A DNA stretch of 64,000 bases from Gilliamella sp. wkB7 (GTDB lineage Bacteria > Pseudomonadota > Gammaproteobacteria > Enterobacterales > Orbaceae), in assembly GCF_001693435.1 (NCBI RefSeq), contig NZ_CM004509.1, forward strand, positions 1,178,001-1,242,000, written 5' to 3'. This document shows positions 17,873-57,134 of the stretch, one piece after another; position 1 is the stretch's first letter, and each line of letters starts with the position of its first letter. The notes beneath the pieces are model-generated. The model saw nothing but the letters and a program-made list of their open reading frames with translations. It did not search any database and was not told the origin of the DNA. The position numbers and the translations under genes were made by a program.

Positions 17873-17911
17873 GTTATTCTCCTTACATGCTATCAAGACG
17901 GTTTGTTATTT

Positions 17912-20436: not shown

Positions 20437-20450
20437 ATGGTATTTATCCG

Positions 20451-39049: not shown

Positions 39050-39060
39050 GATTAAGCCCT

Positions 39061-40133: not shown

Positions 40134-40617
40134 CTTTTATTTCCTTTATTTATCATTGGTTATCATTATGATACTGTATAAGCGCCCAGCATTCCATTAA
40201 ATTAGGAATTACTTTAAAATAAATGTAATTCCGCCAAAATAATCAAGTTCCATTAAAATAATCAATGTCACACTAACAGTATAAAAAATGGTCTCACATA
40301 GAAAAAAGTTAAAATATACATCATTGTTTTATTTATTTTTGTGTTGAAAAATTTCATTATGTTTAAGATAATCAGTTTCATTTGGTCTCATTCAGTCTCA
40401 TTCAGTACCAATAAGCATCAATAAGTATCATTCAGATAGTTACAAACATTTGTTAATTTTTACAGATTTTTATATTTTTTACGGCACAATTTAGGGGGAA
40501 AAAAGGAAAAAAAGGGAAAAATGGATAAAAAAGATATTAATATTCAATAAGAAGATTGTTTTCTAAAGCGGAAATGACCAGCGGACTTTTAGACAATTGG
40601 TCATTTAAATTAGAAGA
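40134..40617. promoter_or_regulatory. 484-bp gap upstream of alpA
   Basis: No gene supported. It carries three CTGAATGA direct repeats and two copies of AATAAGYATC (40388-40437), and a purine tract (40491-40535). As AlpA is read leftward from here, these repeats may be its operators. Confidence 0.4.
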
Positions 40618-41253
40618 TTAGTTTTGAGTATAAGAGAGCGCCAACTTGGCTTTTTCATAAAATGACGATTTGGATAAACCATCTAAATTTAAGTTATGTT
40701 TTTTTGCCATTTCATCTATGGCTTTTTTGATTACTGCAATATTAGGTTTTTCAGCAGTTCCATAAGAGTTACTTTGTTTATCGGCAATTAACTTTAATAA
40801 CATGCCCGTCATTTTATAGATATTTGTTTGTTCCTCATCTTTCTTATACATCCCTCTTTGGCTTTTAGAGAGGTCAGTACCTGTATCTAATAATTCCTGA
40901 CCTCCCAACTTGTAAAGAGTTTCTCGCCACTTTTGCGTACCAGTTATATTTATAATAGCTTTTAATGCGCGCTGTTTTACTGGCTCAGGCGTGACCTCTT
41001 CATCAATCAAAGTATAAGCGATGGTAAACATAATATCTGATGAGTATTTCTGATAAAAGCCCCCGCCATACGAGGAAAGACAACGCTCAATATAGTTTCG
41101 ATAAGAGCGGAAATCAGCCAATTTATCTTGTGGTATTTCTTTTATCTTAATATATGGATCTAGGCCACATAATAGTAAAGCTAATTCTTTGGATTCAATC
41201 ATAGGTAATTTTGTCGCTTGTTCAAAAATCCCCATTTTGGCAAAACTTACCAT
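40618..41253 (-). CDS. hypothetical cargo protein
   Basis: 211 residues, predominantly helical, soluble. No family recognised. Ends with a segment rich in helix formers (AVIKKAIDEMAKKHNLNLDGLSKSSFYEKAK) that looks like a replication- or DNA-binding-type helical tail. AGGTGG upstream of ATG. It is divergent from the baseplate-like genes, in the cargo zone between alpA and int. Confidence 0.65.
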   Translation of the reverse strand: MVSFAKMGIFEQATKLPMIESKELALLLCGLDPYIKIKEIPQDKLADFRSYRNYIERCLSSYGGGFYQKYSSDIMFTIAYTLIDEEVTPEPVKQRALKAIINITGTQKWRETLYKLGGQELLDTGTDLSKSQRGMYKKDEEQTNIYKMTGMLLKLIADKQSNSYGTAEKPNIAVIKKAIDEMAKKHNLNLDGLSKSSFYEKAKLALSYTQN

Positions 41254-41388
41254 TCACACCACCTAATTATCAACGGATGTAATAAATACACTTTAACATA
41301 CAGTTAGATACATTATAACACTGTATCTATATACATGAAAATAATCGTGATAAAATTGGAGGATCAAAATAAATTTTAGGAAAGAATA

Positions 41389-42156
41389 ATGACCTTTCAA
41401 TCTATATTAAATAAATCAGCGACAAATACAGGTTTAATTATTACAGAGGCTGGTACGTTCAGCCTAGATATTAACACCGTAGAGCAGCACACATCAAAAT
41501 TACGAGTAACAGAAAATCCGATAGAGAACGGGGCGAATATTGCTGACCATGCGGTTTTAGACCCTAAAGAAGTCACCGTTAACGGAATTGTTGTTAGTTA
41601 TGAAACCAAGCAGAATTCAATAACGGATTCAATAACGGCTTCAATTGATAAACTGCTCGGAGTTGATGGTTCTGAATATCCGTTACCAATGAAAATCAGA
41701 CCTATAACGGAGCAGGCAGAGAAACAGCTCAGGCGGTATTATGAATCGCGTAATCAGACCATCGAAAAAACAGTTAATAATGTCGTTGCTGATTTTCTCC
41801 CCGATTATCAATCGCCACTACTCAATAATCTATCATCAGACCGTATCAGTGATGCCCATGAAAAACTGCTAGCAATACAACGTAGCGGCACGCCTGTAAC
41901 ATTACAAACAAATACTCGGCAATATAAAAATATGGTGATAACGTCAGTCGGACTGACTCAAAAACAAAATACATCAGGTGAGTTCACCATAACTTTTCGT
42001 GAGGTATTTATCGTCGAAACCCAAACGGTTAACGGTTTTAAAATGCATAAACCGAAAGTTAGAAACTTGGGCAGAGTCCAGCCGCAGGAGGTTACGGGCG
42101 AAGCTAAACGCGCGATTCTTGAAAGATTATTTGGTAAAAAGCCATTTTTTGGATAG
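41389..42156 (+). CDS. Dit-like phage tail/baseplate protein
   Basis: 255 residues. The first part (about 20-200) resembles the Dit-like N-terminal domain of siphophage/myophage baseplate proteins: FSLDINTVEQHTSKLRVTENP, a DHAVLDPKEVTVNGIVVSYE strand pair, and VTLQTNTRQYKNMVITSVGLTQKQ...GEFTITFREV. A good AGGAAAG precedes ATG. Followed by a second baseplate-like gene; no other tail genes are present in the element. Confidence 0.65.
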   Translation: MTFQSILNKSATNTGLIITEAGTFSLDINTVEQHTSKLRVTENPIENGANIADHAVLDPKEVTVNGIVVSYETKQNSITDSITASIDKLLGVDGSEYPLPMKIRPITEQAEKQLRRYYESRNQTIEKTVNNVVADFLPDYQSPLLNNLSSDRISDAHEKLLAIQRSGTPVTLQTNTRQYKNMVITSVGLTQKQNTSGEFTITFREVFIVETQTVNGFKMHKPKVRNLGRVQPQEVTGEAKRAILERLFGKKPFFG

Positions 42157-42174
42157 GTAATAGGAATATATAAC

Positions 42175-42510
42175 ATGCATACTATACAAATAACATCAGA
42201 TGACGTATCAGAGCAGTCATTATCACTATACAATATGAATCTAAAATTGACGTTGCGCTATAACTCTATTTTGCGAGGCTATCAATTTGATTTATTCGAT
42301 ATTGATAAAAATAAATTTATTACGAAAAATAGAGAGTTATCGGTTGGTGCTCCATCGCTCATTGAGTGTAATTTACCGTTTGTACTGATACTGGTTGATA
42401 AATCTGGGCGCGGAGTTAACGCGAAATCTAAAGAGGATTTCAACAGTAGAATGCAAATTGTGATAATGGAAAAAGGGGAGTGGCGTGCGTCACTTAAACG
42501 CAAAGAGTAG
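42175..42510 (+). CDS. DUF6983-like phage baseplate protein
   Basis: 111 residues, beta-rich: LKLTLRYNSILRGYQFDLFDIDKNKFI followed by PSLIECNLPFVLILVDKSG resembles small proteins that sit beside Dit-like genes in phage tail modules. Starts 18 bp after the Dit-like stop with AGGAA upstream; the pair forms a two-gene plus-strand unit ending in a terminator. Confidence 0.6.
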   Translation: MHTIQITSDDVSEQSLSLYNMNLKLTLRYNSILRGYQFDLFDIDKNKFITKNRELSVGAPSLIECNLPFVLILVDKSGRGVNAKSKEDFNSRMQIVIMEKGEWRASLKRKE

Positions 42511-42518
42511 ATAGTTGT

Positions 42519-42540
42519 AAGCCCTTTGACGGGCTTTTTA
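42519..42540 (+). terminator. terminator of baseplate-like gene pair
   Basis: AAGCCC-TTTGAC-GGGCTT followed by TTTTA, 9 bp past the stop codon. Confidence 0.85.
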
Positions 42541-42663
42541 AATTCAACCCCATGAAAGGGATTTGTAAGTTGTCTTTATTATGAAGATAACTGTTTTAAT
42601 TTAACGAAACTACATAATTTTTGCAGTTCCCGATTAAATATTTTTAGTTTGTTAATTCGATTG

Positions 42664-42975
42664 CTATTTTTTCTTTTTATTGAAAGAATACGTGATGTTT
42701 TCTAACCGACCTATAGCAACTATATATGCAATTAGAAAAAATATAGCAGACGCAATAATAAAATCGTTGTGCAAATCACGAAAAAAATTTTTTCTAGCAC
42801 AAATACTACAGTGTATTCCTCCTAGCAAATACATCCAAATTATCAGAATACGTCGAGTCCATTTTAATGGTTTGTTGTATTTATAATCCTTTTCCGTAAA
42901 ACGAGAACGGCGGAAATAATAGCAGGCGCACAAAGTGGCTATAGATAAAAAATAATAAATAAAAATGATAAACAT
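42664..42975 (-). CDS. candidate immunity protein, copy 2 (membrane)
   Basis: 103 residues with a membrane helix at about 2-20 and two more hydrophobic segments (about 42-56 and 73-90). Residues 1-36 are identical to those of the neighbouring copy; the C-terminal two thirds differ strongly, but both end in a Phe-x-Lys4 tail. Located 21 bp downstream of copy 1, which follows the PAAR effector gene. Immunity to the effector is inferred from position, small size and membrane location. Confidence 0.75.
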   Translation of the reverse strand: MFIIFIYYFLSIATLCACYYFRRSRFTEKDYKYNKPLKWTRRILIIWMYLLGGIHCSICARKNFFRDLHNDFIIASAIFFLIAYIVAIGRLENITYSFNKKKK

Positions 42976-42996
42976 TATTCCGATTCGCTATCTTTA

Positions 42997-43308
42997 CTAT
43001 TTTTTCTTTTTATCAAAAGGATGTATGATATCTTCTACCCAACATACCGCAAATATATATGCAATTAGAAAAAATTCAGCTGAAAATATTATAAAATCAT
43101 TTTCTACGTCACGGAAGAAACCTGTTCCCATAAGAATACTTGCGTGCGTTCCCGCTAACAAATACGACCAGATTATCAGAAGTCTTCGCTTCCACCTTAA
43201 CGGTTTGTTATATTTATAATCCTTTTCAGTGAAACGAGAACGGCGGAAATAATAGCAGGCGCACAAAGTGGCTATAGATAAAAAATAATAAATAAAGATA
43301 ATGAACAT
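42997..43308 (-). CDS. candidate immunity protein, copy 1 (membrane)
   Basis: 103 residues, same architecture as copy 2. The shared start is MFIIFIYYFLSIATLC, continuing through YKYNKPL; divergence begins at residue 38. AAAGGAT precedes ATG. It starts 15 bp after the PAAR-DUF4225 stop, the classic effector-immunity spacing. Confidence 0.75.
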   Translation of the reverse strand: MFIIFIYYFLSIATLCACYYFRRSRFTEKDYKYNKPLRWKRRLLIIWSYLLAGTHASILMGTGFFRDVENDFIIFSAEFFLIAYIFAVCWVEDIIHPFDKKKK

Positions 43309-43323
43309 TTTTAATCCTTTATA

Positions 43324-44517
43324 TTATTGAATTTTATATTGTTCACCGTTAGGGCGCGTACATAAATAATAGTGCGGCGGCTCTTCATCAGCAAATGTGA
43401 TGACTATAACTATTTGACAGCTATCCGCTAAATTCCGCACATTTGTAATTGTTTCAGACTCAGGAACAACTAGCGCGGGCTCATCAGTTTCTTTATTATA
43501 AAAGAAAACATTTTTAACGTCATTAAAAATGCTGGACAATGAGGCTATATCAACGGCTACTTCACCTGCCAGCGCTAACTTTTTCATTTGCGTATAATGT
43601 CTAACTAAATCCTGCCGCCCGTAATGCCATAATTTTTTTATTGGTGTTCCAAGTTCATCCTTTTTAGGTACTAGTTTGAGTTTGCCACGCACAGATATTC
43701 CTATATCAACCAAATCATAAACCAGCGTTCCTACTGACTCAGACATACCTAATTCCCGAGCTGCTGCCTGATAGGTGGATTTCAAAAAACCGTCCTGACC
43801 AGTTACGCCCTCCTGTATGCTGTTCAAACCATGAGCGCCAACATATGCACCAATTACACAACCGATCCCAGTTGTGCACATAGCCGCACCAGTTGCAATC
43901 ATAGCTAAACCACCAAAAATGGACAATCCTCTTATTATCCATTCTCTTGATTGTTCGCTAAGACTTTTTTCTTCTTCCTTGATTTTCCCCGCGCCTTGCT
44001 CATACGTCATAGCGCCACTGTCTACTTGCTCAACAATATCATTAGCAAATACTTCGACTTCTTGCTTGAACGCCTGCTTAATATCATCATGATATAGATG
44101 TTTTTCGCATAACTCATCAGCACATTGTAAGAGACGGCGTGCATCAATTCTAATTAAATTGTTTTCGTCATCATTCGTGGAACTCAATTGTTTTTGATTG
44201 CCTGTAAACGAATTAGATTGAACAGAGCCACCACTAACCCCAACGTACATAGTGCTTTTTAACGCTAAAATCCTATGGCCACCAACTGGCGAGCATTTAC
44301 ACGCAACAATACAACCATCATAGGCAACGGGTTTACCGTCGATAATAAAGTTGTCTGCTCCCTCTATAATTCTGCCTGTGCTATTGCATTTAGGACAGGA
44401 AGCCAAATCACCTAATAGAGCGATGCCCTCGCCATCACTATACCCCTGACCTGACGCGGTGATAATCCTACCACCATAATTAGTTGCATCACCCAAAATA
44501 GCTACTTGCTTACTCAT
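43324..44517 (-). CDS. PAAR-DUF4225 T6SS-type effector
   Basis: 397 residues. The PAAR-like domain (about 1-95) starts MSKQVAILGDATNYGGRII and holds a Cys pair CPKCNSTG and HRILALKS; it would cap a VgrG spike. The C-terminal region has the DUF4225 signature: IRGLSIFGGLAMIATGAAMC, TGIGCVIGAYVGAHGLNSIQEG, then SESVGTLVYDLVDIGISV...YGRQDLVRHYTQMKKLALAGE. DUF4225 often follows PAAR in secreted toxins; its activity is not known. A strong GAGGAGG ribosome-binding site is present. Two small membrane genes follow directly. Confidence 0.85.
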   Translation of the reverse strand: MSKQVAILGDATNYGGRIITASGQGYSDGEGIALLGDLASCPKCNSTGRIIEGADNFIIDGKPVAYDGCIVACKCSPVGGHRILALKSTMYVGVSGGSVQSNSFTGNQKQLSSTNDDENNLIRIDARRLLQCADELCEKHLYHDDIKQAFKQEVEVFANDIVEQVDSGAMTYEQGAGKIKEEEKSLSEQSREWIIRGLSIFGGLAMIATGAAMCTTGIGCVIGAYVGAHGLNSIQEGVTGQDGFLKSTYQAAARELGMSESVGTLVYDLVDIGISVRGKLKLVPKKDELGTPIKKLWHYGRQDLVRHYTQMKKLALAGEVAVDIASLSSIFNDVKNVFFYNKETDEPALVVPESETITNVRNLADSCQIVIVITFADEEPPHYYLCTRPNGEQYKIQ

Positions 44518-44798
44518 ACTACCTCCTCACATTGTCTTTATATCCATTGTGAATATGTCTATAGTTTATACAATATAGCCGTGTTAGTCTGATTTTTTGT
44601 GTAAATGAATGTAAGAAATTACTGCTAAGTTATCTATTGCCTTTTTATCAATAAAATCAAAGGGCGCAAAATTGCGCTCTGTTTTTATGGACTCAAGGAA
44701 CTATAACCTAGCCAAGAGAAGAATTTTAAAAATATCTTTACAACAGGGCTTTTTGGTGCTTTTTGTACCCATAGTGATATCAATAAAATCTTTACAGC

Positions 44799-45053
44799 TT
44801 ATAAATATTGGTTTCTTTTCACACAGTGACAATCCTTATAGCTGGGAGGGTGGGTCAAAAGTTCATAACGAAGCATCCTAAAAATCACCCGTCCCCATTT
44901 ATACGTATAACCGCGAATTGAAATAATTTTTTTGCTCGCTATTACTAAATGGGTAACCAAATAGCTATGGTTGAGTAACTCGAATAAATGTAATAAACCT
45001 GCTGACTTTTTAGCAGATTGCAAATGTAATACCTGCATGGTGGAAATCACCAT
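44799..45053 (-). CDS. doubtful small ORF
   Basis: 84 codons from MVISTMQVLHLQSAK. GGAGG is present but 17 bases upstream of this ATG; it suits a 16-codon ORF in another frame better. No family recognised. The frame overlaps the leader-like repeat region, so it may be non-coding. Confidence 0.2.
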   Translation of the reverse strand: MVISTMQVLHLQSAKKSAGLLHLFELLNHSYLVTHLVIASKKIISIRGYTYKWGRVIFRMLRYELLTHPPSYKDCHCVKRNQYL

Positions 45054-45212
45054 AGAGCATTTATTCTTTTCCTCCAATAATAGCCCTGGATCAACCTTAA
45101 AATCACCCTAACTTAACATTATGATTAATAATTATTTTAATTATAAAATAACGCTATATAAATATTTTTATATTTCAATTAGTTAATTACAGGATCAAGA
45201 TTATTTTTAAAT

Positions 45213-45327
45213 GTGTATAGTAGTGAACAGTAGTGAATACTAGTGAATACCAAAAAATATATATAATAAGTATATAATATATTGATATATATAAATTAAT
45301 ATTAGATTGGTGAATAGTAGTGAACAC
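45213..45327 (+). repeat. iteron-like sites TAGTGAAYAS, right cluster
   Basis: Three perfect 10-bp tandem units TAGTGAACAG, TAGTGAATAC, TAGTGAATAC (45221-45250), preceded by a weaker unit (45211-45220), and two more, TGGTGAATAG, TAGTGAACAC (45308-45327), 57 bp further on across a very A/T-rich stretch. P4 alpha binds short iterons containing TGAACA at ori and crr; this would be the ori candidate. Confidence 0.6.
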
Positions 45328-45498
45328 TTTATATTAAAAGTTTAAGATTATGGGGAGGTAAGCATAAAAACAGCCTAATGACTGGGTAAATAAAGGGTGA
45401 CATTTTAAAAAGCACCCCTCAGATATGAGGAGTGGTTATTATGGAGAATTGAAGTATGTAACCCAAATATGAGGCACGGTATGAATAGCGCGATATGG

Positions 45499-46749
45499 TT
45501 AATGATTAACTAGCTTTAAATTGCGGTTACCTGATAGTGAGACATTTCCTTGGCTTGCTTGCTCGACAAAGTCACCCCACCAGTCAAGCATAATTCTGCG
45601 CTGTTCTAGGTAAGTAGCACGGTTATAGGCTCGCCTGACGCTATTAGTATCAACATGGGCTAGTGCCGCTTCAATAATATTAGGGTCAAAGCCTTGCTCA
45701 TTTAATATCGTGCTTGCTAAAGCTCTTAAGCCATGCGCAACAAGCTTATCTTTATATCCCATGCGCTTTATTGCCATGTTAGCAGTACTACTATTCATCG
45801 GGGTTGTATAAGGCGGTTTCATACTTGGGAATATATGCTCTCTATGCCCACTTATAGGCTTCATAATTGATAATATAGCCATAGCCTGCTTATTGAGTGT
45901 AATAGTATGCTCTCGCCTCATTTTCATTTTTTCGGCAGGAATAACCCATAAGCAATTGTCTAGATCAATCTCTTGCCATTTTGCCCCTACCGCTTCATTT
46001 GGGCGTGTCATTGTTAATAATTGCCATTCAATCAAGCAACGCGTTTGTAATTCGATTCTGGCCATAGCAAGGGATTGCATAAATTGGGGCAGCTCTTGCG
46101 CGTTTATTGTTGGCATTTGCCCTTTTATAGGGCTTTCAAAAGCATCTTTTATCTTGGCTGCTGGGTTAGCATCAATCAAGCCTATATTCACCGCATAAAA
46201 CATAATCTCATTGATACGTTGGCAAAGTCTTTTAATTGTTTCTAATTTACCATTAGCTCTTAGTGGCTCCATGGCCTTAATAAATTCTTTTGCTTTTAAT
46301 TTAAAGATTGATTTATCACCAATATAAGGAAATAAATGTAACTCTAACGATTCCCACGTTCTTTTTAAGGTGCTTTCAGTTAGTCCTTTGCCACTTTTAA
46401 CTTTAAACCAATCAGCGGCTACCTTTTTAAAGGTGCTAGTAATTTCGTCATGCTTACGTTGTTCTTGTTCTGCTTTGTGCTCTTGAGGATCTACACCTTG
46501 CTTTATTAATTCTCGCGCTTCATCTCGTTGTTTTCGCGCTTGCTGTAGTGAAACCTCAGGATAACTACCGAAGCTAATTAATGCGCCCTTTTTGGTATAT
46601 GGACGCGTATACTTAAAACGCCAGATTTTAGAATTATTCGATTTAACTAAGAGATACATACCACCGCCATCAAATAAAGAGTAATCTTTATCTCTTGGTT
46701 TGGCTGCTTTTATTTGGGTGTCTGTTAATGGATGTGTTTTCCTTGCCAT
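45499..46749 (-). CDS. int: P4-type tyrosine integrase
   Basis: 416 residues. N-terminal DUF4102 arm-binding domain (LTDTQIKAAKPRDKDYSLFDGGGMYLLV), core-binding domain, and C-terminal catalytic domain with the first Arg in LTMTRPNEAVG, HGLRALASTIL (H-x-x-R) and Tyr in RRAYNRATYLEQRR. Placed 184 bp from tRNA-Ala, its likely target. The start lacks a clear ribosome-binding site. Confidence 0.95.
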   Translation of the reverse strand: MARKTHPLTDTQIKAAKPRDKDYSLFDGGGMYLLVKSNNSKIWRFKYTRPYTKKGALISFGSYPEVSLQQARKQRDEARELIKQGVDPQEHKAEQEQRKHDEITSTFKKVAADWFKVKSGKGLTESTLKRTWESLELHLFPYIGDKSIFKLKAKEFIKAMEPLRANGKLETIKRLCQRINEIMFYAVNIGLIDANPAAKIKDAFESPIKGQMPTINAQELPQFMQSLAMARIELQTRCLIEWQLLTMTRPNEAVGAKWQEIDLDNCLWVIPAEKMKMRREHTITLNKQAMAILSIMKPISGHREHIFPSMKPPYTTPMNSSTANMAIKRMGYKDKLVAHGLRALASTILNEQGFDPNIIEAALAHVDTNSVRRAYNRATYLEQRRIMLDWWGDFVEQASQGNVSLSGNRNLKLVNH

Positions 46750-46932
46750 AATTATTTTAGGTATACGATATATAAGTATATTGCGTCTGTATACCTAAGC
46801 ATATACCTAAAAATTATGGTTGTAAATGTACCTTACTGATACTTAATGGGCAATAAAATAGACTTTAAGGCTTGTTATTACTGGGTTTGGTGTACTTTGT
46901 TGGGTTTAAAAGAATGTTACTGTTTATTGAAT
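46750..46932. promoter_or_regulatory. int upstream region with arm-type repeats
   Basis: Contains GTATACCTAAG and ATATACCTAAAA in direct orientation (46789-46811) and an inverted TTTTAGGTATACG (about 46757-46769). Expected to hold the int promoter and integrase arm sites. Confidence 0.55.
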
Positions 46933-46947
46933 TGGTGGAGCCAAGGG
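46800..46947. repeat. right end direct repeat (attR region)
   Basis: 148-bp partner of 34276-34422 (about 85% identical). The last 15 bases are the 3' end of tRNA-Ala including its encoded CCA. Confidence 0.85.
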
Positions 46948-47008
46948 GGATCGAACCCCTGACCTCAACGCTGCCAGCGTTGCGCTCTCCCAGCTGAGCT
47001 ATGGCCCC
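46933..47008 (-). tRNA. tRNA-Ala(GGC)
   Basis: 76-nt cloverleaf with encoded CCA. Acceptor GGGGCCA pairs with TGGCTCC (one G-U), D arm AGCTCAGCTGGGAGAGC, anticodon stem CAACG/CGTTG with loop CTGGCAG giving anticodon GGC, T arm with GGTTCGATCC. It is the integration target of the neighbouring element. Confidence 0.97.
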
Positions 47009-47133: not shown

Positions 47134-48135
47134 TTAAGGTAATATTGAAGGTTGATCGGCGCCTTCAGCCTCTATTTTTGGAGGCATAAAGTGCTCACGT
47201 TTAACACCTAGTTTAAGTGACATGTACGCAGCCACATAAATCGATGAAATCGTTCCAAGTACAATACCAACTCCTAGTGTTTCTGAGAAGCCTTTCAACA
47301 TAGATCCACCAAAAATATAAAGGATAACAACCACAGCAAGCGTTGTACCTGATGTCATTAAGGTTCGATGCAATGTCTGAGTCAAAGAAATGTTAATAAC
47401 ATCGTAAGGTGATGCTCGACGTATTTTTCTAAAGTTTTCACGAATTCGATCGAATACCACAATGGTATCATTAAGTGAATAACCTATTATTGATAGCATC
47501 GCCGCAATAATTGTTAGATCTAATTCACGTTCAAACAGTGATAAATACCCAGCAGTTATTACAACATCATGCGCTAATGCAACTACAGCACCAGTACCAA
47601 ATCGCCATTCAAAACGAAATGCGATATAAATTAGAATACAAACTAATGCTGCACAAATTGCCAAAATACCATCTTGAGCAAGTTCAGCACCAACCGTTGG
47701 TCCAACAAATTCAATTCGTTTAATTTGTGCATCTTCATCAATTTCTTTATGTATTAAATTAGAAATTTTTGTACCTAATGCATTATCGATTACTGATGAT
47801 GTATCATCGTCCTCTTGTTTGGCGGAAGGTAATCGAATGATAATATCTTTACTGCTACCATAGTATTGTACAATCGGTTCATGATAACCCGCATTACGCA
47901 AACTATTACGTAGATCATCAAGATTAACGTCTTTGGTCACGGTTATTTCAACAGTCGTACCACCTGTAAAATCTTGTCCAAGATTAAAACCTTTAACAAA
48001 GATAATAACAAATGATGCCACTACCAATAACATTGAGATAACAAAAGCAACAAAGCCAAATTTTAAAAAGTCGAGGACTCTGCGGCCATGATTCAATTCT
48101 CTTACATCATGATTTTCATTTTTATTAACAGTCAC
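47134..48135 (-). CDS. secF: protein translocase subunit SecF
   Basis: RND-type partner of SecD that uses the proton motive force to assist Sec export. 333 residues, six membrane helices, with the family segments FTGGTTVEITV and YSLNDTIVVFDRIREN. It lies 9 bp downstream of secD. Confidence 0.97.
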   Translation of the reverse strand: MTVNKNENHDVRELNHGRRVLDFLKFGFVAFVISMLLVVASFVIIFVKGFNLGQDFTGGTTVEITVTKDVNLDDLRNSLRNAGYHEPIVQYYGSSKDIIIRLPSAKQEDDDTSSVIDNALGTKISNLIHKEIDEDAQIKRIEFVGPTVGAELAQDGILAICAALVCILIYIAFRFEWRFGTGAVVALAHDVVITAGYLSLFERELDLTIIAAMLSIIGYSLNDTIVVFDRIRENFRKIRRASPYDVINISLTQTLHRTLMTSGTTLAVVVILYIFGGSMLKGFSETLGVGIVLGTISSIYVAAYMSLKLGVKREHFMPPKIEAEGADQPSILP

Positions 48136-48144
48136 AATAAACCT

Positions 48145-50001
48145 CTAAATTGATAACTTATTAACACGGCGACCGCCATAAATAAGATTGGCTAATGCAC
48201 GAGTACCTACAATCGATGTAAACATTGATGTAATGATACCTATACCCAATGTTATCGCAAAACCTTTGATTGACCCTGTACCGACGGCATAAAGGATAAT
48301 CGCAGTAATTAATGTAGTTAGGTTAGCATCAAATATACTGCTCCAAGCTCCTGCATATCCTTCATTAATTGCATGTTGAACACCACGACCATTACTGAGC
48401 TCTTCTTTTATTCGCTCATTAATCAGAACGTTGGCATCAACCGCCATACCGACCGTTAATACTATTCCAGCAATACCTGGCATACTCAATGTGGCTCCAG
48501 GCAATAGGGACATGATTCCGACAATTAAAATAAGATTAGCGACTAATGCAAGGCTTGCAAATACACCAAACAAACGATACATAACTAACATAAAAATAAC
48601 AGAAACTAATAAGCCCCATACGCAAGATTCTAAACCTTGTGTAATGTTCTCTTGTCCCATTGATGGCCCAACTGTACGTTCTTCAATAATTTGAATTGGT
48701 GCAATCAGTGCCCCTGCTCTTAATAATAGGGATAAGTTTTTAGCTTGATCAACGCTACTAATGCCCGTTACTTGGAATCGTTCACTAAAAATACCTTGAA
48801 TTGTCGCAACGTTAATAACTCGTTCTTGTTTTTCAAGAATCGGTTTATCATTTTCATCACGTTTGCCGGTATCTTTATATTCAACAAATAATGTAGCCAT
48901 TGCTTTGTGAATATTTTTTTGAGTGAAGTTTAACATTGCCTTACCACCTGAACTATCAAGGGTAATGGAAACTTCTGGTTGACCATATTCATTAACTCTG
49001 AACGTCGAGTCGGTAATATGATCTCCCGTTAAAACGATACGTTTATAAAGTAAAACAGGACGTCCATTTTCCATATATTTGATTTCAGATCCGTAAGGTA
49101 CACGCATTTCACCTGCAAGCATGGCTGGTAAATTGGCGGTGTTTTCTTCATTTACTTGTCTAAATTCAAGGGTAGCAGTTGCACCTAAAATACGTTTAGC
49201 TAATGCTGTATCTTGAATACCAGGCAATTCAACGACAATTCGATCTGCACCTTGGCGTTGGACGATCGGTTCAGCCACACCTAATTGATTTACACGATTA
49301 CGTAAAATGGTTGTATTTTGTTGAACAGCATCATTTTTAGCTTGTTGTAATCGTTGTTCACTAACGCTTAAAGTAATACTGTTTTCAGTTTGAGAGATAA
49401 GTTTGAAATCTGGGAGGCCATTGATCTTAGTAATGGCTTTGTTACGGTCTTCGGTATTATCAAATTGTATGACAATTTGTTGGTTACCGTCTTTATTAAG
49501 TGCTTTATATTTTAATTTGCTATTATTAAACTCAAATTTTAAATTTTCGATGGATTGTTCAGTGAGTTTACTTAATGCAGTGGTCATATCAACTTCCATT
49601 AAGAAGTGAACACCACCTCGTAAGTCTAAACCGAGTTTCATCGGCTCTGCACCTAATACAGTAAGCCATTTTGGTGTTGCTGGTGCCAAATTCAAAGCAA
49701 CAATATAAGCGTCACCTAGCTCTTTGGAAATCAGCTCTTTAGCTTTTAGCTGGGTATCGTTATCACCAACACGGATTAAGACAGATTTATTTTCAAAAAC
49801 AAATGATTTGGTTTCAATGTGATTATCTGCCAAAATTTTTCTGATTTTATCTTGTGTGGTAATATCAATGTCAGAAGTATTTGAACCAGAAATCTGTATA
49901 GCAGGATCTTCACCATAAATATTTGGAAGTGCATAAAGAAGGCCGACGCAAATCACGACGACCAACATAATGTACTTCCACAAAGGATAGCGATTTAACA
50001 C
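48145..50001 (-). CDS. secD: protein translocase subunit SecD
   Basis: 618 residues, N-terminal helix, large periplasmic P1 domain (KLGLDLRGGVHFLMEVD motif), and five C-terminal helices with GIAGIVLTVGMAVDANVLI. Length matches E. coli SecD (615). Follows yajC by 60 bp. Confidence 0.97.
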   Translation of the reverse strand: MLNRYPLWKYIMLVVVICVGLLYALPNIYGEDPAIQISGSNTSDIDITTQDKIRKILADNHIETKSFVFENKSVLIRVGDNDTQLKAKELISKELGDAYIVALNLAPATPKWLTVLGAEPMKLGLDLRGGVHFLMEVDMTTALSKLTEQSIENLKFEFNNSKLKYKALNKDGNQQIVIQFDNTEDRNKAITKINGLPDFKLISQTENSITLSVSEQRLQQAKNDAVQQNTTILRNRVNQLGVAEPIVQRQGADRIVVELPGIQDTALAKRILGATATLEFRQVNEENTANLPAMLAGEMRVPYGSEIKYMENGRPVLLYKRIVLTGDHITDSTFRVNEYGQPEVSITLDSSGGKAMLNFTQKNIHKAMATLFVEYKDTGKRDENDKPILEKQERVINVATIQGIFSERFQVTGISSVDQAKNLSLLLRAGALIAPIQIIEERTVGPSMGQENITQGLESCVWGLLVSVIFMLVMYRLFGVFASLALVANLILIVGIMSLLPGATLSMPGIAGIVLTVGMAVDANVLINERIKEELSNGRGVQHAINEGYAGAWSSIFDANLTTLITAIILYAVGTGSIKGFAITLGIGIITSMFTSIVGTRALANLIYGGRRVNKLSI

Positions 50002-50061
50002 GACGTATTCTCTTGTGGGATTAGGTAATTAACACAATGAACTATAATAGGAAACACACTA

Positions 50062-50394
50062 TTATAGTGATTTCATTGTCCCTTTTGGTAAAACAGATGT
50101 GATAAAGTCACGTTTGATCACAACTTGAGTTGAATCATTTAATTCTAACGCAATATAACCATTTTCGTTAACTTTCGCTACTCGACCAATAAGTCCACCG
50201 TTAGTTAATACTTCATCACCTTTAGAAATAGCAGCCATTAAGTCACGATGAGCTTTAGCACGTTTTTGTTGTGGGCGCATAATCATAAAATAGAAAAACA
50301 AACCAAATACAACTAACATGATAGGTAAGAAATAAGGATTATTTTCAACTGTAGCGCCATCAGCAGCATAAGCATTAGAGATTAAAAAGTCCAT
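50062..50394 (-). CDS. yajC: preprotein translocase subunit YajC
   Basis: 110 residues, single membrane helix at about 20-40 (FLPIMLVVFGLFFYFMIMRPQQKR), then a small soluble domain (ISKGDEVLTNGGLIGRVAKV). Part of SecDF-YajC. In E. coli tgt precedes yajC; here the upstream neighbour is nuoN, so the operon context differs. Confidence 0.96.
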   Translation of the reverse strand: MDFLISNAYAADGATVENNPYFLPIMLVVFGLFFYFMIMRPQQKRAKAHRDLMAAISKGDEVLTNGGLIGRVAKVNENGYIALELNDSTQVVIKRDFITSVLPKGTMKSL

Positions 50395-50583: not shown

Positions 50584-52575
50584 TTAGGTTGTTAAGTATT
50601 GCGCCATGCTTACCAAGTTGAATAACCATTTTGGATAAATGCCGCAAATCAAAATTAATAGTGCAGATAAACCAATAATAAGTTCACTTGTTTTTATATC
50701 TTGCCATTTCAACTTAATTACTGGATTGTTTAGCAATTGATCATCGCGATAAGTTGGTCTGATATAAAGATTGATTATCAAACGTGCATAGAAATAGAGT
50801 CCTAATGCACTACCTATTACTACAGCGGCTATCAACCACCACAATTCCGCAGTGACACCTAATAATACCAGTAAAAATCTACCTACAAAGCCTGCCGTAA
50901 GCGGAACCCCCGCTAATGATAATAAACCTATTCCCATGGTTAATGCTAATATCGGTCTACGCCAAAATAGACCTGAGAGGTCAACTTCGTTTTCATGATC
51001 TTGCAGCTCGTTTGAATGAGACTCTAGACTAATAACACCCAAAATACAGATGTTTGCCAAAATATAACCGATCAAATAGACGCCAATGGTTTCTAAAGCA
51101 AGCACTTGATATTGAACAGAGATTAAAGCGATCAATAAATACCCGAAATGTGCAATTGAGGAGTAAGCAAGCAACCGTTTCAAACTGGTTTGCATTAACG
51201 CAACTAAATTACCCCATAAAATAGACAAAAAGGCCATGATGACCAAAATCATACGAATGGTTTCATTATTAACAATCGGCGCCAATAAAAACAATCTTGC
51301 AATAGCACAGAATAATGCAACTTTACCAACTGTTGATAATAGTAAAGCCACAACAGTAGGCGCACCTTGATAAACATCAGGCAACCAAAGCTGGAATGGA
51401 ACCAATGATAATTTAAAGCCTATACCAACGAGCATTAAACAAACTCCCATTAGTAATAAATTACTTGGATAAGACATCGTTGAGAGTTGATAACTTAAAC
51501 CACTAAAAGTAAGCTCGCCTGTTGTTGCATAATAAAAGGCAATTCCCATCAATAAAAATGCACTCGCCACAGCCGATAAAATCATATATTTAACGGCGGC
51601 TTCTAAGGAGTGCGTTTGAATATATTGATACCCTATTAATCCGACAAAAGGTATTGAAAGCAATTCAATACCAATAAAGAATGAAATTAAATGGCTAGCA
51701 TACACAAGCGTTATACCACCCAAGGTCATAAACAATAAAATGACGTAAAAAAGACCATGATGTAAATGCTCTTGTACAAACCAACGATAGGCCAAACAAG
51801 ATACGGTAATGGCTATAATTAAAATTAAGCTAGTATATAATAATCCATAACCATCACAGGTAAAAAGTGCAGTGATTTGACGAGCTTTCCAGTATGCTTC
51901 AGAAGAATCTGTTTGTGGATTGATATCATTTTTATTGCTATCAACCGTCATAGTCGTCGCATCAGTATTAGCATTACTTTCAGCAGGAGTACTCACTTCG
52001 GTATTAGCGTTCGTTACAGTATTAGTACCAGTTTCTCCATTAGTGTTAGTACTAGATTCAGTATTAGCGTCAGTCCCTGAATTAGTATTAGTTTCTCCAT
52101 TAGTGTTAGTACTAGGTTCACTATTTGTGTTGGTTCCTGAATTAGTATTAGTTTCGCTATTAATGTTAGTACTAGGTTCAGTATTTGTGTTGGTTCCTGA
52201 ATTAGTATTAATTTCGGTATTATTACCTTCATTTTTGGTATCAATTTGCGTATTAACACTATTTTCACTAGACGAGATACCAGTTTCAGTTGGCACAGCA
52301 TCTACGGCAATAGTTTCCTCATTTGAAGGCACAGCGTCTTGAATTGATGTATCAGAATTATCTGACATTTGCATATTATCATTACTAATATTAGTAATCA
52401 TTTGGGTGCTAGATGAAATATTGTATCCAATAATGACGGCACAAGCTAAAGCACATCCTAAACCACATATGGTTGTCAAGGCGCATATTTTTGTATTTAT
52501 TTTTAAGGAAGCTAATAAGATAAGCAAAACAATGATAGTCAAGCTTATTACAAATATAGGCGATAATGCTATCAT
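50584..52575 (-). CDS. nuoN: NuoN-like complex I membrane subunit with large Thr/Asn-rich insert
   Basis: 663 residues versus about 485 in E. coli. Two N-terminal helices (about 6-23, 30-51), then a roughly 175-residue Thr/Asn/Ser/Glu-rich insert (about 52-226) containing 20-residue repeats, then the normal antiporter-like core: GIELLSIPFVGLIGYQ (Glu kept), GFKLSLVPFQLW (Lys kept), VGKVALF (Lys kept), LKRLLAYSSIAHFGYLL. Lys395 of E. coli is replaced by Arg (GFVGRF). By analogy with E. coli the insert would face the periplasm. Last gene of nuoJKLMN; no soluble-arm genes are present. Confidence 0.9.
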   Translation of the reverse strand: MIALSPIFVISLTIIVLLILLASLKINTKICALTTICGLGCALACAVIIGYNISSSTQMITNISNDNMQMSDNSDTSIQDAVPSNEETIAVDAVPTETGISSSENSVNTQIDTKNEGNNTEINTNSGTNTNTEPSTNINSETNTNSGTNTNSEPSTNTNGETNTNSGTDANTESSTNTNGETGTNTVTNANTEVSTPAESNANTDATTMTVDSNKNDINPQTDSSEAYWKARQITALFTCDGYGLLYTSLILIIAITVSCLAYRWFVQEHLHHGLFYVILLFMTLGGITLVYASHLISFFIGIELLSIPFVGLIGYQYIQTHSLEAAVKYMILSAVASAFLLMGIAFYYATTGELTFSGLSYQLSTMSYPSNLLLMGVCLMLVGIGFKLSLVPFQLWLPDVYQGAPTVVALLLSTVGKVALFCAIARLFLLAPIVNNETIRMILVIMAFLSILWGNLVALMQTSLKRLLAYSSIAHFGYLLIALISVQYQVLALETIGVYLIGYILANICILGVISLESHSNELQDHENEVDLSGLFWRRPILALTMGIGLLSLAGVPLTAGFVGRFLLVLLGVTAELWWLIAAVVIGSALGLYFYARLIINLYIRPTYRDDQLLNNPVIKLKWQDIKTSELIIGLSALLILICGIYPKWLFNLVSMAQYLTT
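52021..52222. repeat. 60-bp tandem repeat within nuoN
   Basis: About 3.3 copies of a 60-bp unit (each begins ATTAGTA and ends with CCTGA on the plus strand; units at 52021, 52081, 52141 and a partial at 52201). Neighbouring units differ at few positions. Encodes 20-residue Thr/Asn/Ser repeats in frame with nuoN. Confidence 0.9.
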
Positions 52576-52581
52576 AAGTTA

Positions 52582-54126
52582 TTACTCTCCAACTCGTTCT
52601 GCAGTTATATTTTGCTGTGTTTGATTCACCACAGAATAAGACATATCTAAAACTATTTGCGGATATAAGCCAATAAAAACAAGTACAATAAATACACTAG
52701 CAAGTAGCAAAAGATCTCTTTTACCAAGTTGATGCTTTGTTACACAGCTTTTTTCAACAATGCCATAAAATATAGGTTGCATCCGAATAATAAAAGAAAT
52801 AGACAATAGTAATAAACCAACAACAAGCAAAATTGTATAAGATGAAAAAGATGAATAACTGCCAAGCAACATCATATAATTTCCAACAAAATTAGCTGTA
52901 CCTGGAATACCTAAAATTGCTAACATAAAAAATAAAGTGAAGGAAGATATATAGCGTACTTGTTGTTTAAGACCCGTAAATTGATTAATGTTGCGTGTTG
53001 AATAACATTCTACTAACAAGCCACTAATCATGAACATGCCAACGATAACTAAATTAATAGCAATCATTTGTATTACAATGCCTTGATAAGCAATAACAGA
53101 ACCACTATAGATAATTGCAGTTACAAATCCCATCAAAGCGATATGTACATAAGCAATTAATTTTTTAATGTCGGTTTGAATAAATGTCAGTAATGCCGAG
53201 TAGATAACCGTAAGGAGTGCCATTATCATAATTAACGGCATAATCATAACAGAAGCATTAGGAAAAAGTGGAATAACAATACGTAACAAGCCGAATGTCG
53301 AGGTTGTGAGTAATAATCCACTTATCATCATTGAGCCAGTAGTTGATGATTCAATGTGTGCATCAATAAACCAGCTATGAAAAGGTACAAACGGAATACG
53401 TATAATAAAGGCAGCTAAAAAACCTAACATTAACATAAATTCAGTATAACTTGAAATAGGTGTTTTGGTTAGTTCTTGGTAATCAAATGTCCAATGACCA
53501 GATAAAGTCCAATTAATTAAAGCTAATGAGACAATTGAAATTAACATCAGTAAACTACTAATTTGTGTATAAATTAAAAATTTACTTGCTCCATTAAAAC
53601 GTAATTGAGAATTTGAGTCTCGCCTTCCCCATAAAGAAATTAGGAAATAGATCGGGATTGCCACTGCTTCCCAAAAGAAGAATATTAAAAATAGATCAGT
53701 TATGACAAATAACATCATAATGGCAGATGTCATAAATAAAATGCATAAATAAAATAAACCAAAATTATTAGGGCTTTCTTTGCTTGAATAACCAATCGTT
53801 AGTAACACAATAAATAGAGTTGAGGTAATTAAAACTAGTGATAAGCCATCTAAGACTAAATGAAAGTGAATATTAAGCAAAGGAATCCACTCAATATTAA
53901 CTTCTTTTTTCCAATTATTGCCTTGTTGTAAAACAGCTATCCCCTCTTGCCATAAACTAAGTGATAGCAATAAAGTTATAAAAACGGTTATGAAAGCAAT
54001 AAGCATCGGTAATTGATACCAACGCGATACCATTCGAGAGGATCTTACAATCCGCAATAAAAATACATGGCATAACCAACTAATAAATCCACCTATAACA
54101 GGTAAAAAAACAAGCCATAACAACAT
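52582..54126 (-). CDS. nuoM: NuoM-like complex I membrane subunit
   Basis: 514 residues, about 14 helices, antiporter-like. E144 of E. coli is kept (FFFWEAVAIPIYFLISLWG). K234 is Arg (IIRIPFVPFHSW), K265 is Thr (LLLTTSTFGLLR), a TM histidine is Ile (MIAINLV), and E407 is Asn (FVGNYMMLLGS). These residues matter for pumping in E. coli, so energy coupling is doubtful. It starts 17 bp after nuoL; nuoN follows by 6 bp. Confidence 0.92.
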   Translation of the reverse strand: MLLWLVFLPVIGGFISWLCHVFLLRIVRSSRMVSRWYQLPMLIAFITVFITLLLSLSLWQEGIAVLQQGNNWKKEVNIEWIPLLNIHFHLVLDGLSLVLITSTLFIVLLTIGYSSKESPNNFGLFYLCILFMTSAIMMLFVITDLFLIFFFWEAVAIPIYFLISLWGRRDSNSQLRFNGASKFLIYTQISSLLMLISIVSLALINWTLSGHWTFDYQELTKTPISSYTEFMLMLGFLAAFIIRIPFVPFHSWFIDAHIESSTTGSMMISGLLLTTSTFGLLRIVIPLFPNASVMIMPLIMIMALLTVIYSALLTFIQTDIKKLIAYVHIALMGFVTAIIYSGSVIAYQGIVIQMIAINLVIVGMFMISGLLVECYSTRNINQFTGLKQQVRYISSFTLFFMLAILGIPGTANFVGNYMMLLGSYSSFSSYTILLVVGLLLLSISFIIRMQPIFYGIVEKSCVTKHQLGKRDLLLLASVFIVLVFIGLYPQIVLDMSYSVVNQTQQNITAERVGE

Positions 54127-54143
54127 GAATGATTACACCTTTA

Positions 54144-55991
54144 TTAAATAAAAATCAGCAACATTAATATAATAATGCTACCTATAACAATAGATACCAT
54201 ATACCATCGAATATGCCCATTTTCTAAGCTGACAATATATGAGTTTATTTTTTTTATGCCCAACATAATCCAATTATCCCAAATCGCCAATGGATCTTTT
54301 TTAAGCATGTTAGCTAAATACACATAAGGTTTTACAAAAATGATACTTAGCAAATAATCAAATCGCCAATCGCAACTACATAATCTTACAATAAATTTAA
54401 CCATTGGCGTATTTAATACCTCTTGTACTTCACTATTTGGGTGCGCATAAAAAATATAAGCAATAACAAAGCTTAATATGGTTACGGCTGCTAATAATAA
54501 TTGAAACGATAGCTGACTATTAGTATCCAGTTTGGCAATTGGAATAATATTTTGAGTCGGTATTGGGAAATAGATAAAAATGGCCGTCGCAAATATGAGT
54601 AAGATAAAAATTGGACAATAACTAATCCATTTAGTTTTCGCAAATTCAGCAATTTTTGGTTTATGATAAAACACTATAAAAATTAGGCGCCAAATACTTA
54701 AACTGGATAGCAAAATACCTAATAAACCTATCGTTCCTGCCATTAAATGATCTTTAATCATTAATCCCCAAATAATATTACCTTTAATATAAAATGAAGC
54801 TGAAATCCAAGGAATCGCACTTAACGATAACATAATAATCAAAAATATGGCATAGAGAACTGGAAATGATTTTGCAAGTCCACCGAGTTTATTAATATTT
54901 CGCTCACCTTGACATTTTTTGAGTAATATTGCCGATGCTAAGATTAATAAAGTACTTGTTATAACATAGTTAATTAAACAATTAAGCGATGACCCCCAAC
55001 TTTGAGTTGCAAAAGCATAAAACAAATAACTAATTTGAGCTAAATTAATATAAGTTACAATTCGTTTAACATCACTTTGTACTAAAGCAATTGAGCTTGC
55101 AAATAAGACCGTCAGCGAAGCGAAAATAGTCATGATGTCTAACGTATCACTAGACATGATAAACAAGTTACTTAATCTTAAAATCAAGTATACGCCAGCT
55201 AATATGACTGTAGATGATTGCATTAAAGCTACCGCAGGCATTGGCGCTAATGTTGTTTCGACAAACCAAGATTGCATTGGAAAAAGAGCAGACTTACTAA
55301 TGGCTCCTAAAAATAGCATTAATGTGATCCAAAAGATAATATCGGAGTCAATCGCTAAATTATCATGAGCTTGGGTTAAAATCTCACGTATATTTAAGGT
55401 ATCTAAAGTTTGATAAAGTAAGAACACACCAATGATTAAAAAAATATCCGTTAAATGCATAAGCACAAAAGCTTTAGCGGCAGCATAACCATTTCGCAAT
55501 TGTTTATAATAGATACCAATAAGTAAGTAAGTACTTATACTTACACCCTCCCAACCTATTAACATAACCAATAGATTATCAACCAATATAATGGTTAACA
55601 TACTCGCGATTAATAAATTGCTATAGGCATAAAAAGTATAAACATCTTTTTTTGATGTTAAATAACTTGCCGCAAAGAAATAAATTAGTAATCCCAAAAA
55701 AGCAATTATCACTAAGAAAGTTAACGATAAACCGTCTAATGTTAATGATAAAGGTACGACAAAATCCCCAACTGAAAACCAAGTCCATAATGGTCTGCTG
55801 TACACTAACAACATATCCGGTACTGTGTTTTTTATAAAATCAATACAGGTAAACATAGTAATAAGATTTGTTATTAGCATTGTACTAAAACCGATAATCA
55901 TGACATTAATCGGTCGAAGATGTCTACCCAAGCAAACTAGCAATAAAAAAGACAGCAAGGGAATAATAATAGTTAAGTAAAGTAAATTCAT
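54144..55991 (-). CDS. nuoL: NuoL-like complex I membrane subunit
   Basis: 615 residues (E. coli 613) including the C-terminal lateral helix and final anchor. E144 (GWEGVS), D178 (LTDIF), K229 (ISKSALFPMQSW) and K399 (FYIKGN) are kept; H254 is Gln (LMQSST), and the HAFFKALL segment of E. coli has become YVITSTLL, losing H338 and K342. Overlaps nuoK by 4 bp. Confidence 0.93.
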   Translation of the reverse strand: MNLLYLTIIIPLLSFLLLVCLGRHLRPINVMIIGFSTMLITNLITMFTCIDFIKNTVPDMLLVYSRPLWTWFSVGDFVVPLSLTLDGLSLTFLVIIAFLGLLIYFFAASYLTSKKDVYTFYAYSNLLIASMLTIILVDNLLVMLIGWEGVSISTYLLIGIYYKQLRNGYAAAKAFVLMHLTDIFLIIGVFLLYQTLDTLNIREILTQAHDNLAIDSDIIFWITLMLFLGAISKSALFPMQSWFVETTLAPMPAVALMQSSTVILAGVYLILRLSNLFIMSSDTLDIMTIFASLTVLFASSIALVQSDVKRIVTYINLAQISYLFYAFATQSWGSSLNCLINYVITSTLLILASAILLKKCQGERNINKLGGLAKSFPVLYAIFLIIMLSLSAIPWISASFYIKGNIIWGLMIKDHLMAGTIGLLGILLSSLSIWRLIFIVFYHKPKIAEFAKTKWISYCPIFILLIFATAIFIYFPIPTQNIIPIAKLDTNSQLSFQLLLAAVTILSFVIAYIFYAHPNSEVQEVLNTPMVKFIVRLCSCDWRFDYLLSIIFVKPYVYLANMLKKDPLAIWDNWIMLGIKKINSYIVSLENGHIRWYMVSIVIGSIIILMLLIFI

Positions 55992-56290
55992 CCTTTCATT
56001 TCACTCAGTGAATCAATGTTAAAGATTTTACGGCGATAAATTAATTTCGTAAGCAACGCAAGTCCTACACAAGCTTGAGCTAATACAGTAATCACCGCTA
56101 AAATAGCAAGGAGTTCTCCTTCCGATTGTTGCCAATAGCTACCTGCAGAAACTAATGCAACAATAGCACCATTATTCATAATCATAAGGCTTAACAACAA
56201 AAAATAGAGATTACGTCGAATCATTACCCCTAATAAACCTATCACAAATAAAATTGAGGCAAGAATAAGGCTATACATAAGAGGAATCAT
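55988..56290 (-). CDS. nuoK: NuoK-like complex I membrane subunit lacking both key glutamates
   Basis: 100 residues, three helices, aligning with E. coli NuoK over its full length without gaps (GLILAAILFVLG versus SLILASILFVIG; VIRRNL; VAGSYW versus VSAGSYW; NIDSLSEMKG at the end). Glu36 of E. coli is Met here (LLSLMIMNN) and Glu72 is Gln (VLAQACVG). Both are essential for coupled electron transfer in E. coli. Lies 1 bp after nuoJ. Confidence 0.92.
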   Translation of the reverse strand: MIPLMYSLILASILFVIGLLGVMIRRNLYFLLLSLMIMNNGAIVALVSAGSYWQQSEGELLAILAVITVLAQACVGLALLTKLIYRRKIFNIDSLSEMKG

Positions 56291-56291
56291 A

Positions 56292-56783
56292 TTACTTCTC
56301 CGACAAGAGTCGATGCATAAAATGATAAGAGATCACAATTGCACCTAATAATAAAAAACCAGCGAGTTCAGATATCAAAATGTAAGCATATACTGACATT
56401 TCGTGCATCAATTCATGCGACTCATTGATCTGTGAATAGTCAGTACTAACTACACCATAAATAAGAACAACGAGTAAAATAAATGCTAACACTAAAGGCC
56501 CTAACCAAATTTTAGGGCTGATACCTCGTTTTCTATTTTCAACATTATCTATACGAATTCGCAATACAATGGCAACAGATAGAAACAAAGTCACTGTGCC
56601 GGCAATAAATAATAAAATGTATAAAACAACAGAAAAATATGCATCAAGCAAAATAAATATTAAGGCCGAAGAAAAAAGCGAAACCATAAAGTACAAAAGA
56701 GCCTTATCAACACGTAAGCAACTAATTGCTTTTATACCGGCAAACACCGCAATAATCGACGCAATATAGAAAACAATAAGCAT
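56292..56783 (-). CDS. nuoJ: NuoJ-like complex I membrane subunit
   Basis: 163 residues from ATG 56783 (MLIVFYIASIIAVF lines up with the E. coli start MEFAFYICGLIAIL); the alternative TTG at 56798 has no ribosome-binding site. Five helices. The conserved third helix, ALEIIVYAGAIMVLF in E. coli, is VLYILLFIAGTVTLF here: the Glu and the Tyr-Ala-Gly hinge that link quinone chemistry to pumping are altered. First gene of the cluster; nothing of nuoI or earlier genes is found upstream. Confidence 0.88.
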   Translation of the reverse strand: MLIVFYIASIIAVFAGIKAISCLRVDKALLYFMVSLFSSALIFILLDAYFSVVLYILLFIAGTVTLFLSVAIVLRIRIDNVENRKRGISPKIWLGPLVLAFILLVVLIYGVVSTDYSQINESHELMHEMSVYAYILISELAGFLLLGAIVISYHFMHRLLSEK

Positions 56784-57134
56784 CAAATAATAATCCAATA
56801 TGCATTTATAGTTTTGTTAGTATATACCCAAATCATATCAAGATACAGTTTACTGACATTGTGTTAACAGAAAACAAACATAAAAAAATGAAATTTGGTT
56901 AAAAAATGATAGAAAATTTTGTTTTTATCAATCAATAAAGTATGACAAATATAATTAAAACGTTAAAAAAAATAAAAATTATAAAATTTTATGATTTAAA
57001 TTCAATATGGTATTGTTATAAAGTATATAAGTTAAGCACATTAACTAACATTTATCCCAACACCTTTAAATTGTCATGCTCATTAGGCAGCTTAAAGTTT
57101 GTTTTGACTTAATAAAGATAAAAACGAGAAGATA
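56784..57134. promoter_or_regulatory. divergent intergenic region nuoJ / ppc
   Basis: 351 bp, A/T-rich, no coding remnant of nuoA-I. Must contain the promoters of nuoJKLMN and ppc. Confidence 0.5.

Follow-up and report, generated by a model that had tools for sequence, protein, structure and literature searches.

The 64-kb stretch of the Gilliamella sp. wkB7 genome that was analysed here (the window) carries on its minus strand five intact genes, nuoJ, nuoK, nuoL, nuoM and nuoN, which are membrane-arm genes of respiratory complex I and stand in the same order as in E. coli (Table 1). They form an orphan cluster, and the question addressed here is what such a cluster may be doing. An original prediction, made from the DNA alone, had described the five genes as intact and contiguous, with a 351-bp gap to a divergent ppc gene, and this was confirmed. 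The five frames are indeed open, but the claim that all junctions are of 4 bp or less did not hold: nuoJ and nuoK are 1 bp apart and nuoK and nuoL overlap by 4 bp, whereas 17 bp lie between nuoL and nuoM and 6 bp between nuoM and nuoN. The ATG taken as the start of nuoJ agrees with the starts in relatives; the open reading frame (ORF) itself opens with a TTG at 56798. No promoter before nuoJ could be singled out, since promoter-like matches in the scanned region were not in excess (53, against 51.7 expected from shuffles).

The host genome consists of a single contig of 2,901,642 bases (2.90 Mb) and is 99.99% complete, which leaves hardly any credence for the idea that the cluster belongs to an ordinary complex I, with its remaining genes dispersed in the genome or not captured in the assembly. 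Searches for complex I NuoD (PF00346), NuoH (PF00146) and NuoA (PF00507) found none in this genome, NuoB, C, E, F, G and I being outside their scope. The outcome that would have refuted the original prediction, a complete nuoA-I operon elsewhere, did not appear for nuoA, nuoD and nuoH, and a complex I hidden elsewhere was rejected. The same holds for the family, as complex I-type NuoD and NuoA were each found in 0 of 44 Orbaceae genomes. Five of these genomes (G002, G015, G023, G064 and G065) did give matches to PF00346, which were weaker and split, with E values of about 1e-36 to 1e-38, while true NuoD proteins mostly score 1e-95 or better; by this manner of matching they are classed as large subunits of group 4 hydrogenases. 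In all five genomes the genes concerned sit away from nuoJKLMN. NuoH was detected in only three of 24 genus genomes, all three among these five, and each time within 6 kb of the hydrogenase-type NuoD-like gene. In G002, G015 and G023 the latter genes have NuoH-like and additional antiporter-like genes next to them, on contigs other than those carrying nuoJKLMN.

The orphan cluster itself is a property of the whole family, whose members are insect-gut bacteria. A match to NuoM of the window was present in 42 of the 44 Orbaceae genomes, covering five genera and identities down to 53%, and in all 39 genomes with a completeness of 90% or more and a contamination of 5% or less. Both genomes lacking a match are incomplete (G031, 59%; G014, 74%) and are excluded from the 42 clusters used below. 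L025 and L026, which are copies of L110 and L111, were left aside too; L130, with only NuoJ on it, was not aligned. A survey drew 295 genomes from the order. NuoJ above the cut-off occurred in 84 genomes from outside the Orbaceae, all of which also had a true NuoD, and in 22 Orbaceae genomes, none of which had one; 11 genomes (two of them Orbaceae) with PF00346 E values of about 1e-32 to 1e-44 were assigned to the hydrogenase type by score, and one genome (G165, 60% complete) has a piece of NuoD without NuoJ. A tree of the NuoK, L, M and N sequences with 28 rows, 20 of which were taken from the 42 Orbaceae rows, places the Orbaceae in a single clade (SH-aLRT, the Shimodaira–Hasegawa-like approximate likelihood ratio test, 100) whose stem is roughly 1.0 change per column in length. 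This clade groups towards complex I of the E. coli type, although its exact joining point is unsure because of the long branches about which the tool warns. The deepest Orbaceae-like NuoM encountered (P0119, 528 aa, 43–44% identity) comes from a 2.3-kb metagenome contig and has Arg at 234 and Leu at 407.

The orphan state as such is not new, since it was published by Nguyen 2024 (PMC11325843), who, in the available part of that article, report orphan nuoJKLMN in every one of 95 Gilliamella genomes and suggest a remnant. The available part of PMC11434166 holds nothing on complex I, and our literature search, which beyond Nguyen 2024 turned up an unrelated Streptomyces paper on nuoJKLMN, found no test of the remnant view, of function or of selection on these genes.

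To see what the proteins have retained, the Orbaceae rows were compared with eight complex I sets. The residues scored are those which we take to be the key ones of the E. coli enzyme. Several of them are confirmed in the available parts of PMC3046159, PMC13073174 and PMC7419157. Of the columns without variation in complex I, the largest share is kept in NuoN (43/51), followed by NuoM (51/80), NuoK (6/12), NuoL (45/121) and NuoJ (6/18). The notion that the subunits closest to the missing arm lost most fails, as losses in the distal NuoL about equal those in NuoJ.

The changes named in the original prediction all hold in the host genome: E36M and E72Q in NuoK, K234R, K265T and E407N in NuoM, H254Q, H338Y and K342S in NuoL, and Y59F together with an altered hinge in NuoJ. 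Normal residues at these positions in close relatives would have spoken against the prediction, but the relatives share the changes. In all 42 clusters NuoK E36 is lost, NuoJ Y59 is Phe, and in NuoM K234 has become Arg, E407 Asn and H322 Leu, with K265 replaced by Asn, Thr, Ser or Gly. In NuoL, H338 is Tyr and K342 is lost throughout (Ser in 40), and H254 is Gln in 39 and His in three. The claim of lost pumping residues is nevertheless half right, since the proton path has not simply gone. NuoK E72 is variable, being Glu in 25 relatives and Gln in 17; this change and that of NuoL H254 are later or variable within the family. Furthermore, the key residues of NuoN and mostly those of NuoL, which the original prediction did not list, have been kept: NuoN E133, K158, K217, D229 and K247 are present in 42 of 42, with K395 changed to Arg in 41, and NuoL has E144 in 39, D178 in 42, K229 in 40 and K399 in 41 clusters, with E144, K229 and K399 kept jointly in 38. 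NuoM, too, has E144 in all 42, where it always occurs together with R234. In the same subunit S319 is replaced by His in 41 of 42 clusters, which puts a histidine one turn of the helix ahead of the lost H322 (residue 328 of the host NuoM, at 53143–53145), as if the side chain had shifted along the helix.

Selection on the five genes was examined by way of the ratio of nonsynonymous to synonymous substitution rates (dN/dS), calculated by the Nei–Gojobori method (NG86) for Gilliamella pairs with 0.1 < dS < 1.0; the pairs are not independent and the method ignores base composition. The medians are 0.163 for nuoJ, 0.109 for nuoK, 0.099 for nuoL, 0.078 for nuoM and 0.106 for nuoN. E. coli compared with a single relative that has complex I (L128) gave 0.148, 0.080, 0.094 and 0.100 for nuoJ, nuoL, nuoM and nuoN, at a dS of 1.2–1.6 that is above the range used for Gilliamella and with nuoK not computable. 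The genes flanking the cluster gave 0.043 (ppc), 0.065 (secD), 0.045 (secF) and 0.117 (yajC). Constraint on nuoJKLMN is thus about that of a working complex I and, the core of NuoN apart, weaker than that on ppc or secDF. The value for this core, 0.063, is obtained when an acidic insert loop (0.376) is left out. The insert is 68–216 residues long in the 42 Orbaceae clusters as compared to nine in E. coli; its length varies but it is always in frame, and its net charge is negative in all 42. An AlphaFold2 model of NuoN was poor (mean predicted local distance difference test score, pLDDT, 38.7) and was set aside. Columns invariant in complex I still evolve more slowly than other columns in NuoL (p 3e-7), NuoM (p 1e-10) and NuoN (p 4e-10), and show no significant slowing in NuoJ (p 0.11) and NuoK (p 0.09).

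These data bear directly on the published suggestion that the five genes are functionless leftovers of genome reduction. Decay would fit with the disappearance of the catalytic subunits, with the failure to keep 12 of 18, 6 of 12 and 76 of 121 invariant columns in NuoJ, NuoK and NuoL, and with the absence of significant slowing in the two smallest proteins. On the other hand, none of the 42 clusters, drawn from five genera, has a broken frame in any of its five genes, even where NuoM identity has dropped to 53%, dN/dS is low (0.08–0.16, and 0.063 for the NuoN core), and the invariant columns of the three large subunits are still the slower ones. A remnant made up of pseudogenes can be rejected, as there are neither broken frames nor a relaxed dN/dS, and we consider decay in any form very improbable. 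The presence of an intact part of the membrane arm that is under selection suggests a function of its own instead of a decaying relic, and it is very likely that nuoJKLMN has a kept function. The original prediction of a complex I-derived assembly that is maintained but no longer coupled to NADH oxidation, which had proposed the dN/dS of relatives as a check, is supported in these respects; its further suggestion of an antiporter is plausible.

We propose, with a probability of roughly 45%, that nuoJKLMN in the Orbaceae encodes a maintained, redox-free membrane complex for which ion exchange is the leading candidate mechanism; an Mrp-like proton/cation exchanger or else a proton conduit is its probable role. 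The other parts of complex I would have disappeared no later than the origin of the family. The five remaining proteins may still assemble in the order L-M-N-K-J and move ions unaided, with NuoN as an MrpD-like proton conduit, NuoL as a second, MrpA-N-like ion conduit, and NuoM, without Lys265 and Glu407, chiefly as a spacer or a rewired path; NuoJ and NuoK would close the end formerly occupied by NuoH and the peripheral arm. In net terms the complex would likely swap H+ for Na+ or K+, powered by ion gradients already in place, and serve pH and salt balance. Cation/proton exchange as the function is a tentative assignment, which we would put somewhat short of even odds. Somewhat more doubtful, yet possible, is the full scenario in which the Orbaceae, at their root, turned a redox pump back into a redox-free transporter by subtraction, with JKLMN as a stand-alone secondary cation/proton exchanger. 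Housekeeping Na+/H+ exchange may have passed to such an exchanger. No NhaA and no Nqr/Rnf were found in any of the 44 Orbaceae genomes; the control search detected the NhaA of E. coli. The scenario runs opposite to the customary account, according to which complex I arose by assembly from an Mrp-like antiporter.

A stand-alone exchanger with NuoN as its proton conduit is favoured because of homology with Mrp, rescue of Mrp mutants by NuoL and NuoN, shared Glu/Lys pairs, the fact that residues lost here are absent from Mrp too, and the lack of NhaA. As far as the available text of PMC7419157 goes, NuoL is homologous to MrpA-N, NuoM and NuoN to MrpD, NuoK to MrpC and NuoJ to MrpA-C, and Mrp has histidines in place of two NuoK glutamates and Glu706 at the position of NuoJ Tyr59. 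Since Mrp itself lacks those NuoK and NuoJ residues, their loss is no bar to exchange. E. coli NuoL can rescue an mrpA deletion in B. subtilis, and NuoN rescues an mrpD deletion under some circumstances (PMC4938563, available part). The Glu/Lys pairs E144/K229 of NuoL, E144/K234 of NuoM and E133/K217 of NuoN are described as conserved with MrpA and MrpD in the part of PMC13073174 at hand.

Several observations weigh against this proposal. The kept Glu/Lys pairs are a weak sign of transport, because mutants in them are mild or silent: of the E. coli NuoN mutants, E133A has no effect and K217A a mild one, with most proton pumping kept, while K247A and K395A are severe (PMC13073174, in part), E133 is called dispensable in what is available of PMC3046159, and MrpA mutants E113Q and K196A were still able to grow with 80 mM NaCl (PMC4938563, in part). 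The residues of the Mrp cation site are not found, NuoJ 59 being Phe and NuoK 30–44 being devoid of His in 42 of 42 clusters. NuoM is without Lys265 and Glu407 throughout, NuoL has lost 76 of its 121 invariant columns, and in four of 42 clusters (G060, G061, G064 and G065) key NuoL residues themselves are changed (E144V/Q, K229R, K399E). None of the annotated neighbours is MrpB, E, F or G, for which a genome-wide search was not made, and the absence of NhaA is weak support as the search did not extend to NhaB, NhaC or the CPA antiporters. Finally, lost invariant columns have been re-fixed no more often than background (NuoL 20/76 versus 0.37, NuoM 9/29 versus 0.44). The idea that new fixation at lost sites would mark a new function was thus tried and found unsupported, and the data speak for constraint and not for new fixation.

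Some of the same evidence can be read in terms of a passive or gated proton conduit, in which NuoN, and perhaps NuoL, admits protons for pH control or for spilling surplus proton-motive force. NuoN is the best conserved subunit (43/51), its E133, K217 and K247 are intact, and no Mrp cation-binding residue is recognised, all of which would suit such a role. However, purifying selection acts on all five genes and an open leak would probably be costly, so that we regard a mere conduit as unlikely.

NuoL/N-like subunits are known to accept other partners, as in DabB and hydrogenase-4, and nuoJKLMN might likewise pair with a protein encoded elsewhere, such as a redox enzyme, NDH-2 (type II NADH dehydrogenase), the orphan FrdCD or a DabA-like protein. 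FrdC, a fumarate reductase membrane anchor, is present in the window and in 43 of 44 Orbaceae genomes, and no frdA or frdB occurs among the ORFs listed beside frdCD. These genes are less constrained, with dN/dS values of 0.295 (frdC) and 0.215 (frdD) in 21 genomes, for which reason frdCD appears less needed than nuoJKLMN. A hydrogenase partnership was rejected as a general solution, the hydrogenase-type matches being confined to 5 of 44 genomes. The surroundings of the cluster do not point to a partner either: in the 14 loci compared, the only genes next to nuoJKLMN in most genera are ppc, together with the gene beside it, and yajC-secDF, and the annotated replacement neighbours are unrelated (Obg, MoaC/MoaE, a peptidase and an autotransporter, with two further neighbours lacking a Pfam match). 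No DabA-like gene is among the annotated neighbours, a genome-wide DabA search not having been made. We regard a partner elsewhere as unlikely.

Retention for a reason other than transport, as a membrane scaffold or by coupling to the adjacent yajC-secDF genes, seems quite remote. It is true that yajC follows nuoN in 39 of 42 loci. Nevertheless, a TG-extended promoter-like site precedes yajC at 50461–50434 (such sites overall are not above shuffles), the nuoJKLMN frames are still open in the three loci where yajC is absent from the 3.2–4.7 kb examined downstream, and the proton-path residues of NuoN are conserved. Upstream, ppc was not found in 8 of 42 loci, and the module stays intact where its neighbours change.

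Table 1 Coordinates of nuoJKLMN and other features in the 64-kb window
Feature	Position	Strand	Remarks
nuoJ	56292-56783	-	163 aa from ATG; Oxidored_q3 (PF00499), 42.8 bits versus cut-off 33.2, read from TTG 56798
nuoK	55988-56290	-	100 aa; Oxidored_q2 (PF00420); NF004319, 107.7 bits versus cut-off 101
nuoL	54144-55991	-	615 aa; Proton_antipo_M; TIGR01974, 404.2 bits, slightly below cut-off 407.5
nuoM	52582-54126	-	514 aa; Proton_antipo_M
nuoN	50584-52575	-	663 aa; Proton_antipo_M; TIGR01770, 347.3 bits versus cut-off 332.6
NuoN insert	51871-52428	-	hydrophilic, acidic, Ser/Asn/Thr-rich, low-complexity; after the first two hydrophobic stretches, approximately residues 50-235
Intergenic gap nuoJ/divergent ppc	56784-57134		351 bp; ppc from 57135
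yajC-secD-secF	47134-50394	-	Pfam; downstream neighbour, not part of the nuoJKLMN module
frdC	20008-20436	+	orphan fumarate reductase membrane anchor
frdD	20382-20807	+	orphan fumarate reductase membrane anchor

Elsewhere in the window, two ORFs at 17255–19420 resemble, by eye, Cse2 and Cse1 of type I-E CRISPR-Cas systems, with more ORFs on the same strand from 13827. A probable prophage occupies 38447–47008 beside a tRNA (46936–47008); it includes an ORF that looks integrase-like by eye (45499–46749) and, at 38447–38650, matches to the Rfam C4 antisense and isrK RNAs.

It has long been asked whether the antiporter-like subunits of complex I can move ions alone, and the Orbaceae offer a natural experiment in which the membrane arm was freed from the redox arm, family-wide and under selection. 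Tests of selection, of residues and of the whole family point to a function, which we consider very likely and which contradicts the remnant reading; if true, this would correct a published suggestion on the bioenergetics of common bee-gut symbionts. If the module does transport ions, it would provide a minimal system for studying the proton and cation paths in NuoL, NuoM and NuoN, with Arg395 in NuoN and Arg234 and Asn407 in NuoM as natural variants.

Known systems offer several points of comparison. The DabAB bicarbonate system and the group 4 hydrogenases both use NuoL/N-like subunits outside complex I. The Orbaceae module differs from the former by having no DabA-like gene among its annotated neighbours, and from the latter in that hydrogenase-type matches are limited to 5 of 44 genomes and lie away from nuoJKLMN. 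With respiratory complex I (NDH-1) it shares the E. coli-type antiporter-like subunits L, M and N accompanied by J and K, but NuoA and NuoD are gone across the family and NuoH from the host genome, NuoK E36 and NuoM K234, K265, H322 and E407 are changed, and NuoN has an insert region of 68–216 residues. As compared to the Mrp (CPA3, cation/proton antiporter 3) type of Na+ or K+/H+ antiporter, the counterparts of MrpA are unfused, there are three antiporter-like subunits instead of two, and equivalents of Glu706 and His37/His40 are missing; what the two have in common are homologous subunits, the absence of a redox arm, and Glu/Lys pairs that are present in NuoN and mostly in NuoL.

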